The notes under the pieces are model-generated. The model saw only the letters and a program-made list of their open reading frames with translations, was not told the origin of the DNA and did no database searches. The translations under genes were made by a program, and so were the position numbers. This document shows, piece by piece, positions 24,103 to 30,031 of a stretch of DNA of 64,000 nucleotides. The stretch spans positions 62,001 through 126,000 of the forward strand of contig CALXSJ010000008.1 in the NCBI GenBank assembly GCA_944391115.1, written 5' to 3'. The stretch comes from an uncultured Victivallales bacterium. GTDB lineage: Bacteria > Verrucomicrobiota > Lentisphaeria > Victivallales > UBA1829. The number at the start of each line of letters is the position of its first letter. The first letter of the stretch is position 1.

Positions 24103-24277
24103 ATAAGGACCTGGAGGTCCGGCCAGGCATCCGGAACTGCTCCTGCCCCTGCTTTGTCCCCGGACATGCAGGTCTCACGGGGACGCCCCGTCCGTGTATT
24201 TCTGTTTTGTTGAGCATGAGACGGAAATGATTCCGGAAAACATTTGCAAAAAGATTTTGTCCGATTATATTAATGAA
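24103..24277. other. Gap between the glycan operon and the hydG leader
   Basis: A hairpin with stem ACGGGG/CCCCGT at 24177-24191 is followed by a U-rich but not uniform stretch. It could be a weak terminator of the glycan operon. The gap ends with the promoter at 24244-24271. Confidence 0.35.
24244..24271 (+). promoter_or_regulatory. Sigma70-type promoter of the TM1266-hydG leader
   Basis: The -35 is TTGCAA (24244-24249), the spacer is 16 bases, and the -10 is TATATT (24266-24271). Transcription would start near 24278, leaving a leader of about 175 bases. Confidence 0.55.
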
Positions 24278-24452
24278 ATGTTCTGAAACCAAGGGACTGT
24301 TTCCCGCGGCGGAAGACACGAAAAAAAGATATCGTTCTGAACATTCAGGGTGCGTCCCGGGTGCAAGGCGGTGATCGAAGCAAAGGATTCGCCATCCCCG
24401 TGCGCCGTTGTCCGGAACACGGGGATTTTTTTATGCCGCGGAAGGAGCAGCA
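24278..24452 (+). promoter_or_regulatory. Structured 5' leader with attenuator, unknown class
   Basis: The leader holds a long-range pairing ATGTTC (24278-24283) with GAACAT (24339-24344), extendable upstream with one bulge, and an internal GGGA/TCCC hairpin. A GGCG...CGCC stem lies at 24367-24393, and the intrinsic terminator at 24394-24432 follows. GCAAGGCG (24363-24370) can instead pair with CGCCGTTG (24403-24410) inside the terminator loop, which would enclose the terminator's 5' half and could act as an antiterminator. I could not match it to SAM, cobalamin, TPP, glycine, Moco or T-box consensus sequences by eye. Confidence 0.4.
24394..24432 (+). terminator. Intrinsic terminator inside the hydG leader
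   Basis: A perfect 9-bp stem (ATCCCCGTG / CACGGGGAT) with a 15-base loop is followed at once by seven T (24426-24432). It ends 20 bases before the ATG of the TM1266-type gene, with GGAAGGAG in between. It lies in the direction of, and before, the gene. Confidence 0.75.
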
Positions 24453-24704
24453 ATGGAAACGGAAACCAGAATCGCACTGATCGGGATCATCGTGGAGAAT
24501 CAGCGGATCACCGAGGAACTCAACCGGATTCTCCATGAATACGGGGAATATGTCGTGGGACGCATGGGGGTGCCCTACAAGAAGCAGAATGTCTGCATCA
24601 TCAGTGTGATTGTGGACGCGCCGAACAATGTCATCAGCTCTCTTTCCGGAAAGCTCGGCATGCTTGACGGCATCAGCGTGAAAACAGTATATTCCAAAAA
24701 ATAA
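24453..24704 (+). CDS. TM1266-family iron-only hydrogenase system regulator (ACT-like)
   Basis: The 83-residue protein matches the small TM1266 family of ACT-domain-like proteins. They sit beside [FeFe]-hydrogenase maturation genes and are presumed regulators. Visible features are the IALIGIIVENQRITEELNRIL start, VVGRMGVPYKKQNVCIISVIVDAP in the middle and a C-terminal LGMLDGISVKTVYSKK strand. It probably forms dimers binding a small ligand; which one is unknown. It is 19 bases upstream of hydG and shares its leader and terminator. RBS GGAAGGAG precedes the ATG. Confidence 0.85.
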   Translation: METETRIALIGIIVENQRITEELNRILHEYGEYVVGRMGVPYKKQNVCIISVIVDAPNNVISSLSGKLGMLDGISVKTVYSKK

Positions 24705-24723: not shown

Positions 24724-26148
24724 ATGATGAAATACGATCCGAAATCATCCAGAGCCGAGGAATTCATCAACGATCAGGAGATTCTGGAAACCCTGGCCTA
24801 TGCCGAAGCGCATAAGAACGACCGCGTGCTCGTCGAACAGATTCTGGAAAAGGCGAAGGAATGCAAAGGTCTGACGCACCGGGAGGCTCTGGTCCTGCTG
24901 GACTGCGAGCTGGAGGAGGAGAAGGGGAAAATCTTCGCCCTTGCGCGTGAGATCAAGCAGAAATTCTACGGAAACCGCATTGTGATGTTTGCCCCGCTGT
25001 ATCTCTCCAACTACTGTGTCAACGGCTGCACCTACTGCCCTTACCACCTGAAAAACAAGCACATCCGGCGCAAGAAGCTGACGCAGGAGGAGATCGCGAA
25101 AGAGGTGATCGCGCTGCAGGACATGGGGCACAAGCGTCTTGCGCTTGAAACCGGCGAGGATCCGGTTCACAATCCGATCGAATACGTTCTGGAGAGCATT
25201 AAGACGATCTACGGGATCAAGCACAGAAACGGGGCGATCCGCCGGGTCAATGTCAACATCGCCGCGACGACGGTCGAGAACTACCGCAAACTCAAGGAGG
25301 CCGGGATCGGCACCTACATTCTCTTTCAGGAGACCTACAACAAGAAGGCCTATGAGGAGCTGCATCCGACCGGTCCGAAACACGATTACGCCTATCACAC
25401 CGAGGCGATGGACCGGGCGATGGACGGCGGAATCGATGATGTCGGCTGCGGCGTTCTGTTCGGGCTGAATCTCTACCGCTACGATTTCGTCGGGCTCCTG
25501 ATGCACGCGGAGCATCTTGAGGCGGCCAAAGGCGTCGGACCGCATACGATCAGCGTGCCGAGAATCCGCGCTGCGGACGACATCGACCCCGGGACGTTCT
25601 CCAACGCGATTTCCGATGAGATCTTTGAAAAGATCGTTGCCGTTCTGCGGATTGCGGTTCCCTATACGGGAATCATTATTTCCACGCGTGAATCGCAGAA
25701 GGCGCGCGAACGCGTGCTCCGCCTCGGCGTGTCGCAGATCAGCGGCGGCTCCCGCACGAGTGTCGGCGGCTATGTGGAAAAGGAGAGCGAGGAGGAGAAT
25801 TCCGCTCAGTTCGACGTCAGCGACACGCGCTCGCTCGACGAAGTCGTGAACTGGCTGCTCGGGCTCGGCTACATCCCGAGCTTCTGCACCGCCTGTTACC
25901 GGGAGGGGCGCACCGGGGACCGTTTCATGAAACTGGTGAAGTCCGGACAGATCGCAAACTGCTGTCAGCCGAATGCCCTGATGACGCTGAAGGAATATCT
26001 GGAGGATTATGCTTCGGAGGACACCCGGAAAAAAGGCGAAAAGGTGATTCAGGATGAGATTCCGCGCATTCCCAATGAAAAAGTGCGCGCGATCGCCATG
26101 GACCATCTGCGCGAGCTTCATGACGGGAAACGGGATTTCCGTTTCTGA
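24724..26148 (+). CDS. hydG: [FeFe] hydrogenase H-cluster radical SAM maturase HydG
   Basis: HydG cleaves tyrosine to make the CO and cyanide ligands of the [FeFe]-hydrogenase H-cluster. The radical SAM cluster motif CVNGCTYC (near residues 98-105) and the LALETGEDPVHNP segment are typical. The C-terminal CTACYREGRTGDRF...NCC stretch provides the CX2CX22C motif for the second cluster. At 474 residues the length is usual. Two adjacent ATGs (24724, 24727) are possible starts. HydE, HydF and a hydrogenase subunit are not in the window, so they must lie elsewhere if the system is complete. It is transcribed with the TM1266-type gene. The organism is therefore probably an H2-metabolising anaerobe. 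Confidence 0.95.
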   Translation: MMKYDPKSSRAEEFINDQEILETLAYAEAHKNDRVLVEQILEKAKECKGLTHREALVLLDCELEEEKGKIFALAREIKQKFYGNRIVMFAPLYLSNYCVNGCTYCPYHLKNKHIRRKKLTQEEIAKEVIALQDMGHKRLALETGEDPVHNPIEYVLESIKTIYGIKHRNGAIRRVNVNIAATTVENYRKLKEAGIGTYILFQETYNKKAYEELHPTGPKHDYAYHTEAMDRAMDGGIDDVGCGVLFGLNLYRYDFVGLLMHAEHLEAAKGVGPHTISVPRIRAADDIDPGTFSNAISDEIFEKIVAVLRIAVPYTGIIISTRESQKARERVLRLGVSQISGGSRTSVGGYVEKESEEENSAQFDVSDTRSLDEVVNWLLGLGYIPSFCTACYREGRTGDRFMKLVKSGQIANCCQPNALMTLKEYLEDYASEDTRKKGEKVIQDEIPRIPNEKVRAIAMDHLRELHDGKRDFRF

Positions 26149-26341: not shown

Positions 26342-27679
26342 GTGCCGTATATTGCGAATACAGAAAGCGACCGCGCGGAAATGCTCAAGGCCGCCGGCTT
26401 TTCCAGTCTGGAGGACATGTGGGAGAAGGCGGGCGTCCGCTTCCCGTATCCCGCGCTTTCGGGGATTCCCGAGGGGCGGTCCGAATACGAGGTCGTGAAG
26501 CATCTCGAACATCTGGCGGACATGAACGCAACCCATCTGATCAACTTTGTCGGCGGGGGTTACTACGATCATGTCATTCCCTCCGTCGTCGACAGCATTG
26601 TCTCCCGGGGGGAATTCTACACAGCCTACACGCCATATCAGCCCGAAGCCTCCCAGGGGACGCTTCAGGCGATCTACGAGTATCAGACCGCGATGTGCCG
26701 CCTGACCGGAATGGAGGTCTCCAATGCGAGCCTTTACGACGGCGGAACCGCGCTTTTCGAAGCGATGATGATGTCCGTCAAGATCACCGGCCGTCGGAAG
26801 GTCGTGATTTCCGGCGCGGTTTCTCCGATTTTCCGCCGCATGATCGAATGCTACTGCATCAATCTGGATGTGGAGCGGCGCGAGGTGCCGGCCGGAAGCG
26901 GGACGGACTCCAATCTGGAAAATCTCAAGCGCGCGGTGGATGAAAACACGGCATGCGTGATCGTCCAGTATCCGAACTTTTTCGGCGAGATCGAGGATCT
27001 CAGCAGCGTGGTCGCCGCCGCCCATGCCAACGGGGCGCTGGCCGTCTGTTCCACCTATCCCGTCGCGCTGAGCGTCCTGAAGACGCCCGGCGAAATGGGA
27101 TTCGACATCGTGACGGGGGAGGGGCAGAGCCTCGGGATTCCGCTGAGTTTCGGCGGTCCCTATCTCGGATTCATGACCGTCCGCGGCAAATACATGCGCA
27201 AGATGCCCGGACGCATCGTCGGGCGCACGAAGGACCTCGACGGCAGGGACGGCTTCGTCCTGACAATCCAGACGCGCGAGCAGCATATCCGCCGGGAGCA
27301 CGCAACCAGCAACATCTGTTCGAACGAGAGCCTCTGCGCGCTGTCCGCCCTGGTTTATCTGACCGCGGTCGGCAAACAGGGATTTGTCGACATCGGCAAT
27401 CTCTGCATGTCCAAGGCGGTCTTCGCCAGAAACGAACTCCTTGCCATCAAGGGCGTGGAGCCGGTCGGAAACGGCATTTTCTTCAATGAGTTCGTCATCA
27501 AGGTGCCCTGCGACGCTTCGGAACTGGCCGGAAAGCTGATCGACAAGGGATTCGCCGCCGGGTTCCCGCTCGGCAGATACTACGCGGACCGGCGCGATCA
27601 GCTGCTGATCGCCGTCACGGAGAAACGCACGAAGGAAGAGATCAAAGCGCTTGCAAACGCAATGGAGGCATTACTGTGA
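26342..27679 (+). CDS. gcvPA: Glycine dehydrogenase (decarboxylating) subunit 1
   Basis: This is the N-terminal half of split P-protein of the glycine cleavage system, which decarboxylates glycine and passes aminomethyl to GcvH. It starts with GTG (PYIANTESDRAEML, the usual family opening), preceded by AAGGGAGAAG. The fold is PLP-enzyme type, with VVISGAVSPIFRRM, SFGGPYLGFMTVRGKY and TIQTREQHIRREHATSNICSN as conserved stretches. The PLP lysine lies in subunit 2. It is 445 residues and overlaps gcvPB by 4 bases. No glycine-riboswitch signature is seen in the 193-base upstream gap. gcvT and gcvH are not in the window. Confidence 0.95.
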   Translation: MPYIANTESDRAEMLKAAGFSSLEDMWEKAGVRFPYPALSGIPEGRSEYEVVKHLEHLADMNATHLINFVGGGYYDHVIPSVVDSIVSRGEFYTAYTPYQPEASQGTLQAIYEYQTAMCRLTGMEVSNASLYDGGTALFEAMMMSVKITGRRKVVISGAVSPIFRRMIECYCINLDVERREVPAGSGTDSNLENLKRAVDENTACVIVQYPNFFGEIEDLSSVVAAAHANGALAVCSTYPVALSVLKTPGEMGFDIVTGEGQSLGIPLSFGGPYLGFMTVRGKYMRKMPGRIVGRTKDLDGRDGFVLTIQTREQHIRREHATSNICSNESLCALSALVYLTAVGKQGFVDIGNLCMSKAVFARNELLAIKGVEPVGNGIFFNEFVIKVPCDASELAGKLIDKGFAAGFPLGRYYADRRDQLLIAVTEKRTKEEIKALANAMEALL

Positions 27680-29127
27680 AACTGATATTCGAATCCGGCC
27701 GTCCCGGGCGCACAGGCGCCGTCCTTCCCGTTCTTGACGTGCCGCAGGGATGTGCCGTTCCGCCGTCCCTCCGGCGTTCGGAAACCGCCGGGCTGCCCGA
27801 GGTTTCCGAACTGGAGACCGTGCGCCATTTCACGAATCTCAGCAGAATGAACATGAGCGTGGATACAAATTTCTATCCGCTCGGTTCCTGCACGATGAAA
27901 TACAATCCGAAGTCCCATGAGAAAATCGTCCGGATGCCGGGATTCGCCGAACTGCATCCGCTTCTTCCGCAGCTCCGGCACGGCGGCGTTCTGACGCAGG
28001 GCGCGCTGACGGTGATCTATGAAACCGAACGGATGCTGAGCGAGATTCTCGGATTCTCCCAGACCACGATGCAGCCGATGGCGGGCGCGCACGGGGAACT
28101 GACCGGCGTGATGCTGATCGCCGCCTACCACAAGTCGCGGCGGGACTATGCGCGGAAGATCATGCTGATTCCCGACGCCGCCCACGGAACGAATCCCGCA
28201 AGCGCGTCGGTGGCGGGATTCACGACAAAGGTGGTGCCGAGCGACGAAAATGGAAATGTCGATCTCGATGCGTTGAAGGGCATGCTCTCTCCGGAGGTGG
28301 CCGGCATCATGCTGACCTGTCCGAACACACTCGGACTCTTCGATCCGAACGTCAGGGAAATCTGCTCTCTGATCCACGAGGCCGGCGGTCTCTGCTACTG
28401 TGACGGCGCAAACTTCAATGCGATCATCGGGCGTCTGCGTCCCGGTGACATCGGCTTTGACGTGATGCATGTCAACATCCACAAAACCTTTTCCACGCCG
28501 CACGGCGGCGGCGGCCCGGGCGCGGGTCCGGTCGGCGTGGCGGAAAAACTCGTTCCGTTCCTGCCGGTCTCCCGCGTGGTGCGGCGTTCCGACGGCATGT
28601 GCGTGCTGGAATATGAACATCCCGAGTCGATCGGTTACATCGCACCGTTCTACGGCAACTTCGGCGTGATCCTGCGGGCTTATGCCTATCTTCTGACTCT
28701 CGGACGCAAAGGGCTGGTCCGCGTCAGCGAGAACGCCGTGCTCAACGCCAACTACATCATGGCTGCTCTGAAGCCTTATTATGAGCGCAAATATGACCGC
28801 GTCTGCATGCACGAGTGCGTCTTTTCCGCATCGAAACAGGTGCGGGAGGGCGGCGTTCATGCGCTGGACGTGGCGAAGGCGCTGATTGACCGGGGCATTC
28901 ATCCGCCGACCATTTACTTCCCGCTGATCGTGCCGGAGGCGCTGATGATCGAGCCGACCGAGACCGAGTCGCGGGAGGACATGGATGACTTCATCCGGGC
29001 GATGATCGAAATTGCGAAACTGGCGCAGGAGTCGCCCGAATCGCTGAAAGCGTGTCCGCTGACGATGCCCGTGAAGCGTCTGGATGAGACGACTGCCGCG
29101 CGCAAGCCCGATCTTGCCTGCCCCTGA
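27676..29127 (+). CDS. gcvPB: Glycine dehydrogenase (decarboxylating) subunit 2
   Basis: This 483-residue C-terminal half of P-protein carries the PLP-binding lysine in VNIHKTFSTPHGGGGPGAGP. Other conserved parts are MNMSVDTNFYPLGSCTMKYNPK, the glycine-rich MQPMAGAHGELTGV loop and DAAHGTNPASASVAGF. It forms a heterodimer with GcvPA. The ATG overlaps the gcvPA stop by 4 bases, ensuring matched synthesis. A promoter for the next unit lies 29 bases after the stop. Confidence 0.95.
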   Translation: MKLIFESGRPGRTGAVLPVLDVPQGCAVPPSLRRSETAGLPEVSELETVRHFTNLSRMNMSVDTNFYPLGSCTMKYNPKSHEKIVRMPGFAELHPLLPQLRHGGVLTQGALTVIYETERMLSEILGFSQTTMQPMAGAHGELTGVMLIAAYHKSRRDYARKIMLIPDAAHGTNPASASVAGFTTKVVPSDENGNVDLDALKGMLSPEVAGIMLTCPNTLGLFDPNVREICSLIHEAGGLCYCDGANFNAIIGRLRPGDIGFDVMHVNIHKTFSTPHGGGGPGAGPVGVAEKLVPFLPVSRVVRRSDGMCVLEYEHPESIGYIAPFYGNFGVILRAYAYLLTLGRKGLVRVSENAVLNANYIMAALKPYYERKYDRVCMHECVFSASKQVREGGVHALDVAKALIDRGIHPPTIYFPLIVPEALMIEPTETESREDMDDFIRAMIEIAKLAQESPESLKACPLTMPVKRLDETTAARKPDLACP

Positions 29128-29238: not shown

Positions 29239-29583
29239 ATGGAACTGAAGGTAATTAAGGCGGACGGCGATTATACGCATGTGGCTCTCTCCGGACGGCT
29301 CGATATCGACGGGGTCACTTCCGTGGAGGAAAAATTCACGAATGTCGTCAGCGCCAAGGGCAAACCGGCGATTGTGGATATGACGGAGGTCGGTTTTATC
29401 GCTTCTCTGGGCATGCGCATGCTGCTGACCGCGGCGAAAGCGCTGCGCGCGAATGGAGCGAAGCTGGTCGTTTATAATCCGCAGCCCGTCGTCCTGGAGG
29501 CGCTTCAGACTGCCGGATTTGCCGCGGTGATGCCCATAGAAAACGACTTTTCGAAAGCGCTGGCTCTTCTGCAGAATGTCTGA
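29239..29583 (+). CDS. STAS-domain anti-sigma factor antagonist
   Basis: The 114-residue protein is one STAS domain (HVALSGRLDIDGVTSVEEKF, then PAIVDMTEVGFIASLGMRML). In RsbV/SpoIIAA relatives the phosphorylated serine is in the DSSG position; here the equivalent is the serine of IASLGMRML. It probably binds the ATPase encoded next, which it overlaps by 8 bases, in a partner-switching module. TTTGGAGAA precedes the ATG. No phosphatase or sigma gene is adjacent. Confidence 0.85.
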   Translation: MELKVIKADGDYTHVALSGRLDIDGVTSVEEKFTNVVSAKGKPAIVDMTEVGFIASLGMRMLLTAAKALRANGAKLVVYNPQPVVLEALQTAGFAAVMPIENDFSKALALLQNV

Positions 29584-30031
29584 TGACAATGCGCTTTCCC
29601 CGATTGAGATGAGGAAAAACGGCATGTCCGGCAGACTTGAGTTTCAGCTGCGCAACACTGTCGGGGATGTTTCCGTTTCCCTGCCTTTGATCCGGCGTTT
29701 TGCGGCGGAATCCGGACTCGCGGGGCGTCAGGAATATGTTTTGATCTTGTCATATGAGGAACTTGCGACCAATATTGTAAAGTACGGATTTGATGATGCA
29801 GCCATACACCGGATCCGAGTTCTGCTGGAGAATCATTCCAGAGGCGTCAGCCTTACGCTGATGGATGACGGTCATGAATTCGATCCATGCCGCGCGCCTG
29901 TTCCGGAATTTTCTCCGGATCCTGCGTCGGGGGCGCCTGGCGGCGCGGGGCTTCGTCTTGTAAGGAAGATGGCGCGTTCCATGCAGTATTCCCGCGAAAA
30001 CGGATGGAATGTTGTCAAAGTTCTGATTTAG
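29576..30031 (+). CDS. Anti-sigma-factor type ATP-binding protein (HATPase, RsbW-like)
   Basis: The 151-residue GHKL-fold protein has an N-box in SYEELATNIVKYGFDD, a G1 box in LMDDGHEFDP and a G2 loop in GGAGLRLVRKMA. This is the layout of RsbW/SpoIIAB serine kinases that phosphorylate a STAS partner. Its first codons overlap the STAS gene by 8 bases; internal ATGs at 29609 and 29624 are alternative starts that would still include the fold. The controlled target (sigma factor or response protein) is not in the window. Confidence 0.8.
   Translation: MSDDNALSPIEMRKNGMSGRLEFQLRNTVGDVSVSLPLIRRFAAESGLAGRQEYVLILSYEELATNIVKYGFDDAAIHRIRVLLENHSRGVSLTLMDDGHEFDPCRAPVPEFSPDPASGAPGGAGLRLVRKMARSMQYSRENGWNVVKVLI

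Follow-up and report, generated by a model that had tools for sequence, protein, structure and literature searches.

A tandem-hairpin leader RNA precedes TM1266-hydG operons in Victivallales and Clostridia and is a candidate transcription attenuator

We wondered how the expression of a TM1266-hydG operon might be controlled from its own leader in an uncultured Victivallales bacterium, from which one stretch of DNA of 64 kb (here called the window) was analyzed. The operon starts with a TM1266-family gene (TIGR03959; 24453-24704, plus strand), which according to a family match and a structure model encodes a NikR-like sensor domain without a DNA-binding domain. It is followed by hydG (TIGR03955 by family match; 24724-26148, plus strand), the radical SAM maturase of the [FeFe]-hydrogenase H-cluster. 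A promoter had been claimed at 24244-24271 (plus strand) in a preliminary description of the locus. It is indeed present, can be read directly as -35 TTGCAA, a 16-nt spacer and -10 TATATT, and places the predicted transcription start at about 24278. Equivalents exist in relatives, as all 22 of 22 Victivallales leaders carry a comparable -10/-35 pair 8-19 nt 5' of the first hairpin unit (unit A). The promoter-proximal leader (24279-24432) consists of two hairpin units and an intrinsic terminator; a gap of 20 nt, the TM1266 ATG at 24453 and then hydG follow. Further downstream, 193 nt 3' of hydG, lie gcvPA and gcvPB (26342-29127), encoding the subunits of the glycine cleavage P-protein. H-cluster assembly reportedly draws on the glycine cleavage system, and the proximity of these genes to hydG may matter; Rfam found no glycine riboswitch near them. 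An anti-sigma factor antagonist and an anti-sigma-like kinase gene (29239-30031) are located just 3' of gcvPB.

The leader had been described as structured on the grounds of a terminator and a possible antiterminator. Both stand, but its main feature had been missed: the leader carries two copies of one hairpin motif of about 42 nt, unit A (24279-24318) and unit B (24331-24372), both on the plus strand. The motif comprises an outer stem P1, a CU/AG step adjoining a 1-nt U bulge, GA opposite GA and a short P2, and more distally a small internal loop, a GC-rich P3 and a variable, often tetraloop-like loop. Unit A is built from P1 UGU/ACA (24279-24281/24316-24318), the CU/AG step (24283-24284/24314-24315) with GA opposite GA beside it, a short P2 CC/GG (24289-24290/24308-24309) and P3 GGG/CCC (24293-24295/24303-24305). 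The corresponding elements of unit B are P1 AUCGU/GCGGU (24331-24335/24368-24372), the CU/AG step (24337-24338/24366-24367), P2 CAUU/GGUG (24342-24345/24360-24363) and P3 GGG/CCC (24348-24350/24356-24358), with CA in place of GA in the GA/GA position. R1, a covariance model of one hairpin unit built from a hand-structured seed, scored unit B at 31.5 bits and unit A at 29.0 bits and the next best site of the 64 kb at 10.6 bits, both units having been part of its training set. Unit A probably serves as a further sensor like unit B, giving cooperativity or two-step control.

Searching with a 521-bp region showed that the similarity of relatives extends into the leader, and reading 85 TM1266 upstream regions of the order by hand revealed the same tandem motif in many genera. 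Scanning 137 genomes of the order and 198 of the class with R1 returned essentially the TM1266 leader position only; one match (G130:C37) was inside a coding region and was discarded as a false positive. No second locus was found up to E 3 in 13 genomes for which more candidates were scored. In Victivallales the leader accompanies TM1266 genes with a true hydG (78-100% identity) directly behind them, whereas TM1266 genes followed by a distant radical SAM gene (21-28% identity) do not have it; a minority of the Victivallales TM1266-hydG loci are without a recognizable copy of the motif. Several genomes of one Victivallales genus (L074-L100) possess two TM1266 genes. The copies that were read have no leader motif, and behind one of them lies a radical SAM gene whose identity to HydG is only about 25%. 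In a metagenome-assembled genome labelled Thermoguttaceae, TM1266 and hydG are 71% and 83% identical to those of the window, suggesting horizontal transfer or misbinning.

The RNA is not confined to this order. A TM1266 protein search led to loci in Clostridia, and R1 recognized the same hairpin 5' of their TM1266 genes, for instance in Clostridium sulfidigenes (AUCGUUCUGAAUUACAUGAGGGUUAGCCCAAAUGAUAAGGCGGU). In a scan of 391 Clostridia-class genomes with the model R2, 31 matched at E<=0.01. In 30 of them the match lay 5' of a TM1266 gene that had hydG, or a HydE-like gene plus hydG, behind it. The remaining match, in genome G612, was inside an unrelated gene and is a false positive; further R2 matches (L153, L155-L158), which read as lying inside or beside coding genes, were treated likewise. 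TM1266 itself is present in 235 of the 391 genomes. When 24 TM1266 loci were chosen without regard to the motif, nine matched at the right place and on the right strand, compared to about 0.25 expected. Unit A was detectable about 50 nt 5' of unit B in six Clostridia loci, and some leaders contain unit B alone, directly behind the promoter. Anaerocolumna carries a second copy of the RNA with its own terminator before a HydE-like gene: in Anaerocolumna sp. G454 (locus L154, 1501-1544, minus strand of the locus) RNA and terminator are positioned 5' of a radical SAM gene of the HydE-like kind, with no TM1266 there. The hairpin motif is thus conserved across phyla, in Victivallales and in Clostridia, and it sits almost exclusively before TM1266, the gene of the putative regulator itself.

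Covariation in orthologous leaders had been set beforehand as the test on which the idea of a structured leader could fail, and covarying pairs were found. Among 31 Victivallales units, 12 of the 14 pairs displayed double changes (score 0.448 versus 0.182 in shuffles), and 83.7% of the cells could pair; shuffles reached 67.6%, and slid controls no more than 52%. With 55 units from the two phyla, double changes occurred in 11 of 14 pairs, the score was 0.393 versus 0.186 (reached in 0 of 500 shuffles), and 88.4% of the cells could pair versus 76.6% in shuffles. These pair counts are inflated by the fitting of the alignments to a hand-written structure. RNAalifold recovered P2, P3 and the core of P1 from the two-phylum alignment, and single units folded alone formed P3 in 46, P2 in 45 and P1 in 38 of 55 cases. 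From MAFFT alignments based on sequence alone, RNAalifold derived hardly any structure, since the lengths of P2 and of the loop differ between units, a variation that was handled by the hand-structured seed and subsequent realignment to the model. The internal-loop nucleotides UCUGA, AAGG and AGGG/CCCGAG are conserved across both phyla. By its folding energy the window leader does not stand out (z -0.8), and it is the comparison between genomes that argues for more than chance. The comparison thus yielded a conserved, structured putative sensor domain with covarying pairs, as is looked for in riboswitches.

We found the intrinsic terminator (24394-24432, plus strand) as previously claimed, at the distance from the ATG given above: a 9-bp stem AUCCCCGUG/CACGGGGAU (24394-24402/24418-24426) and T7 (24426-24432). 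It can be read directly and, because its loop measures 15 nt, was absent from a scan for short-loop terminators. As in attenuators in general, it lies between promoter and first gene, and most orthologous leaders likewise hold a terminator 5' of the start codon. The upstream segment that had been proposed to pair with the terminator loop also exists. The strand CAAGGCG (24364-24370, plus strand), which also contributes to unit B on its 3' side, can pair with the loop segment CGCCGUUG (24403-24410, plus strand) with one bulge, and more generally the 3' strand of unit B shows complementarity to the terminator's 5' arm and loop. Across 26 non-redundant loci, the helix formed with the own partner scored 365.5, compared to 319.2 (sd 10.7) when partners were swapped between loci (p 8e-5) and to 290.6 (sd 11.7) with shuffled arms. 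The p 8e-5 refers to the core strand against 5' arm plus loop, a form of the test that was chosen after examples had been seen by eye and to which Clostridia were added; an earlier, broader test (whole 3' strand against the terminator) gave p 0.09. Linked changes are exemplified by GGAAAGACG/CGUCUUUCC (L031), GAAGGCG/CGCCUUC (L039), GAAAAGGCG/CGCCUUUUU (the Anaerocolumna copy, L154) and a further pair, GAAGGG/CCCUUC. Such linked change of antiterminator and terminator strands supports the antiterminator that had been called plausible, and suggests that a mutually exclusive pairing has been conserved. The window is among the weaker cases, its antiterminator being bulged (4+3 bp), and much of the complementarity concerns the terminator loop, not the stem. 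Equilibrium folding of the window leader placed terminator states at -45 to -52 and antiterminator states at -35 to -39 kcal/mol. Equilibrium therefore favours the terminator in the window, and antitermination would need to be kinetic or assisted.

At the level of sequence comparison, these data establish the two units with their base pairs and the terminator, as well as linked change in the alternative pairing and an association with TM1266 that is nearly exclusive. We consider it probable that the leader is an attenuator of transcription of the anti-antiterminator type which controls the TM1266-hydG operon. RNA polymerase would start at about 24278 and produce unit A, then unit B and then the terminator region. 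Without anything to keep unit B folded, its 3' strand (CAAGGCG and neighbouring nucleotides) could pair with the terminator, at its loop and on its 5' side, and allow read-through. If a trigger stabilizes unit B, the strand would be locked in P1/P2, the terminator would form and the operon would be off. Since folded unit B frees the terminator and unfolded unit B feeds the antiterminator, we infer from the arrangement of the strands that binding of the trigger switches the operon off.

This layout resembles known systems without belonging to one of them. Scans with Rfam 15 (4227 families, including all curated riboswitches) detected only tRNAs in the window at the gathering score, and relaxed scans returned only chance matches, with nothing plausible in the leader at E<=10 or in the orthologous loci. 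The covariance models thereby confirmed the earlier impression that no known riboswitch class is involved; resemblances to K-turn, twister, hammerhead and guanidine-III RNAs were considered and dropped for lack of fit. A close analogy is offered by the PyrR attenuators of pyr operons (Rfam PyrR), whose layout is well established: the anti-antiterminator is a conserved hairpin with a 3' strand that competes with an antiterminator, and between it and the first gene lies a terminator. This gene often encodes an RNA-binding regulator, a role that is putative for TM1266. In contrast to PyrR attenuators, the leader matches neither their sequence nor the PyrR hairpin model, often contains two sensor hairpins, and is followed by TM1266, hydG or hydE instead of pyr genes. 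Tandem glycine, NAD+-I and guanidine-II riboswitches also use two similar domains for one expression platform (PMC9481103) but have different conserved nucleotides, and no Rfam match was found in the window leader at E<=10. Tandem Wco riboswitches have been reported before some hydrogenase genes (PMC9481103); the Moco/Wco RNA differs from the leader in architecture, and cmscan detected it neither in the leader (E<=10) nor in the Clostridia loci (E<=5). Our search of the open-access literature, which did not extend to the 2017 survey by Weinberg and colleagues, found no published leader or riboswitch at hydG, hydE or TM1266, and hydrogenase genes are absent from the main text of three genome-wide RNA discovery papers. 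We conclude that this is a real, structured, cross-phylum leader RNA and a new RNA family of a known kind, a candidate attenuator or riboswitch.

What, then, might trigger the switch? We lean slightly towards the TM1266 protein and regard a small molecule as equally credible, each of the two falling somewhat short of an even chance. TM1266 might bind the hairpins and, reading the status of hydrogenase assembly, attenuate its own operon in the way PyrR acts on its own leader. The near-exclusive linkage of the RNA to the TM1266 gene argues for this, as do the position of TM1266 as the first gene after the RNA and its NikR-like sensor domain without a DNA-binding domain. Among PDB structures, the AlphaFold model of the protein (mean pLDDT 95) best matches 2nzc and the regulatory domain of NikR. 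Proteins of the NikR type form oligomers, a property that would fit a pair of hairpins, and a second RNA copy before a HydE-like gene, as in Anaerocolumna, is what one expects of a trans-acting regulator. On the other hand, many TM1266 genes without the RNA keep the invariant residues: R6, N24, H28, R37, G39, P41 and D55 are equally conserved in Victivallales proteins that have no leader. Our full proposal is more tentative still: TM1266 may be an RNA-binding autoregulator which senses the state of hydrogenase assembly, stops transcription by folding the tandem hairpins in its leader, and also the copy before a HydE-like gene in Anaerocolumna.

Alternatively, the two units may be aptamers of a new riboswitch class sensing a compound of H-cluster assembly, a HydG or HydE substrate, product or iron-carbonyl intermediate being candidate ligands, and TM1266 may simply be the first gene under control. 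The preliminary description had named SAM, tyrosine, iron or redox state as speculative candidates. Conserved TM1266 residues that do not track the presence of the RNA are in keeping with this alternative. Internal-loop nucleotides conserved across two phyla are consistent with such an aptamer, as is the copy before a HydE-like gene without TM1266, and several riboswitch classes have similar domains in tandem (PMC9481103). However, riboswitch classes usually control varied genes including transporters, whereas this motif is almost confined to TM1266 operons, and no pseudoknot or junction is evident in the unit, which is a simple hairpin. It appears improbable that the units merely serve as stabilizing hairpins at the 5' end, with a terminator that attenuates constitutively or ends a transcript from upstream. 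In every state tested, folding thermodynamics are on the side of the terminator, and the -10 box lies just 5' of unit A, so that a short abortive RNA is expected anyway, but the cross-phylum loop conservation, the covariation and the linked change of the antiterminator would not be expected of passive hairpins. That terminator and repeat look structured only to the eye, as the z-score of the window fold would allow, is hardly conceivable given covariation, linked change, the siting of 30 of 31 matches before TM1266 and the nine matches among 24 unselected loci, and judged by sequence this reading is already refuted by the recurrence across phyla.

The leader thus represents a structured RNA family absent from Rfam 15 that is found in at least two phyla and is almost confined to the operon for assembly of the [FeFe]-hydrogenase active site. 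It suggests, in a concrete form that can be tested, how TM1266 could act as a putative hydrogenase regulator without a DNA-binding domain, and it could lead to a new riboswitch ligand connected with H-cluster chemistry or else to an RNA-binding regulator with the NikR fold. If autoregulation by TM1266 holds true, control of [FeFe]-hydrogenase maturation at the RNA level would be common to at least two phyla, and the leader would be the missing target of a regulator family that is annotated only as putative.
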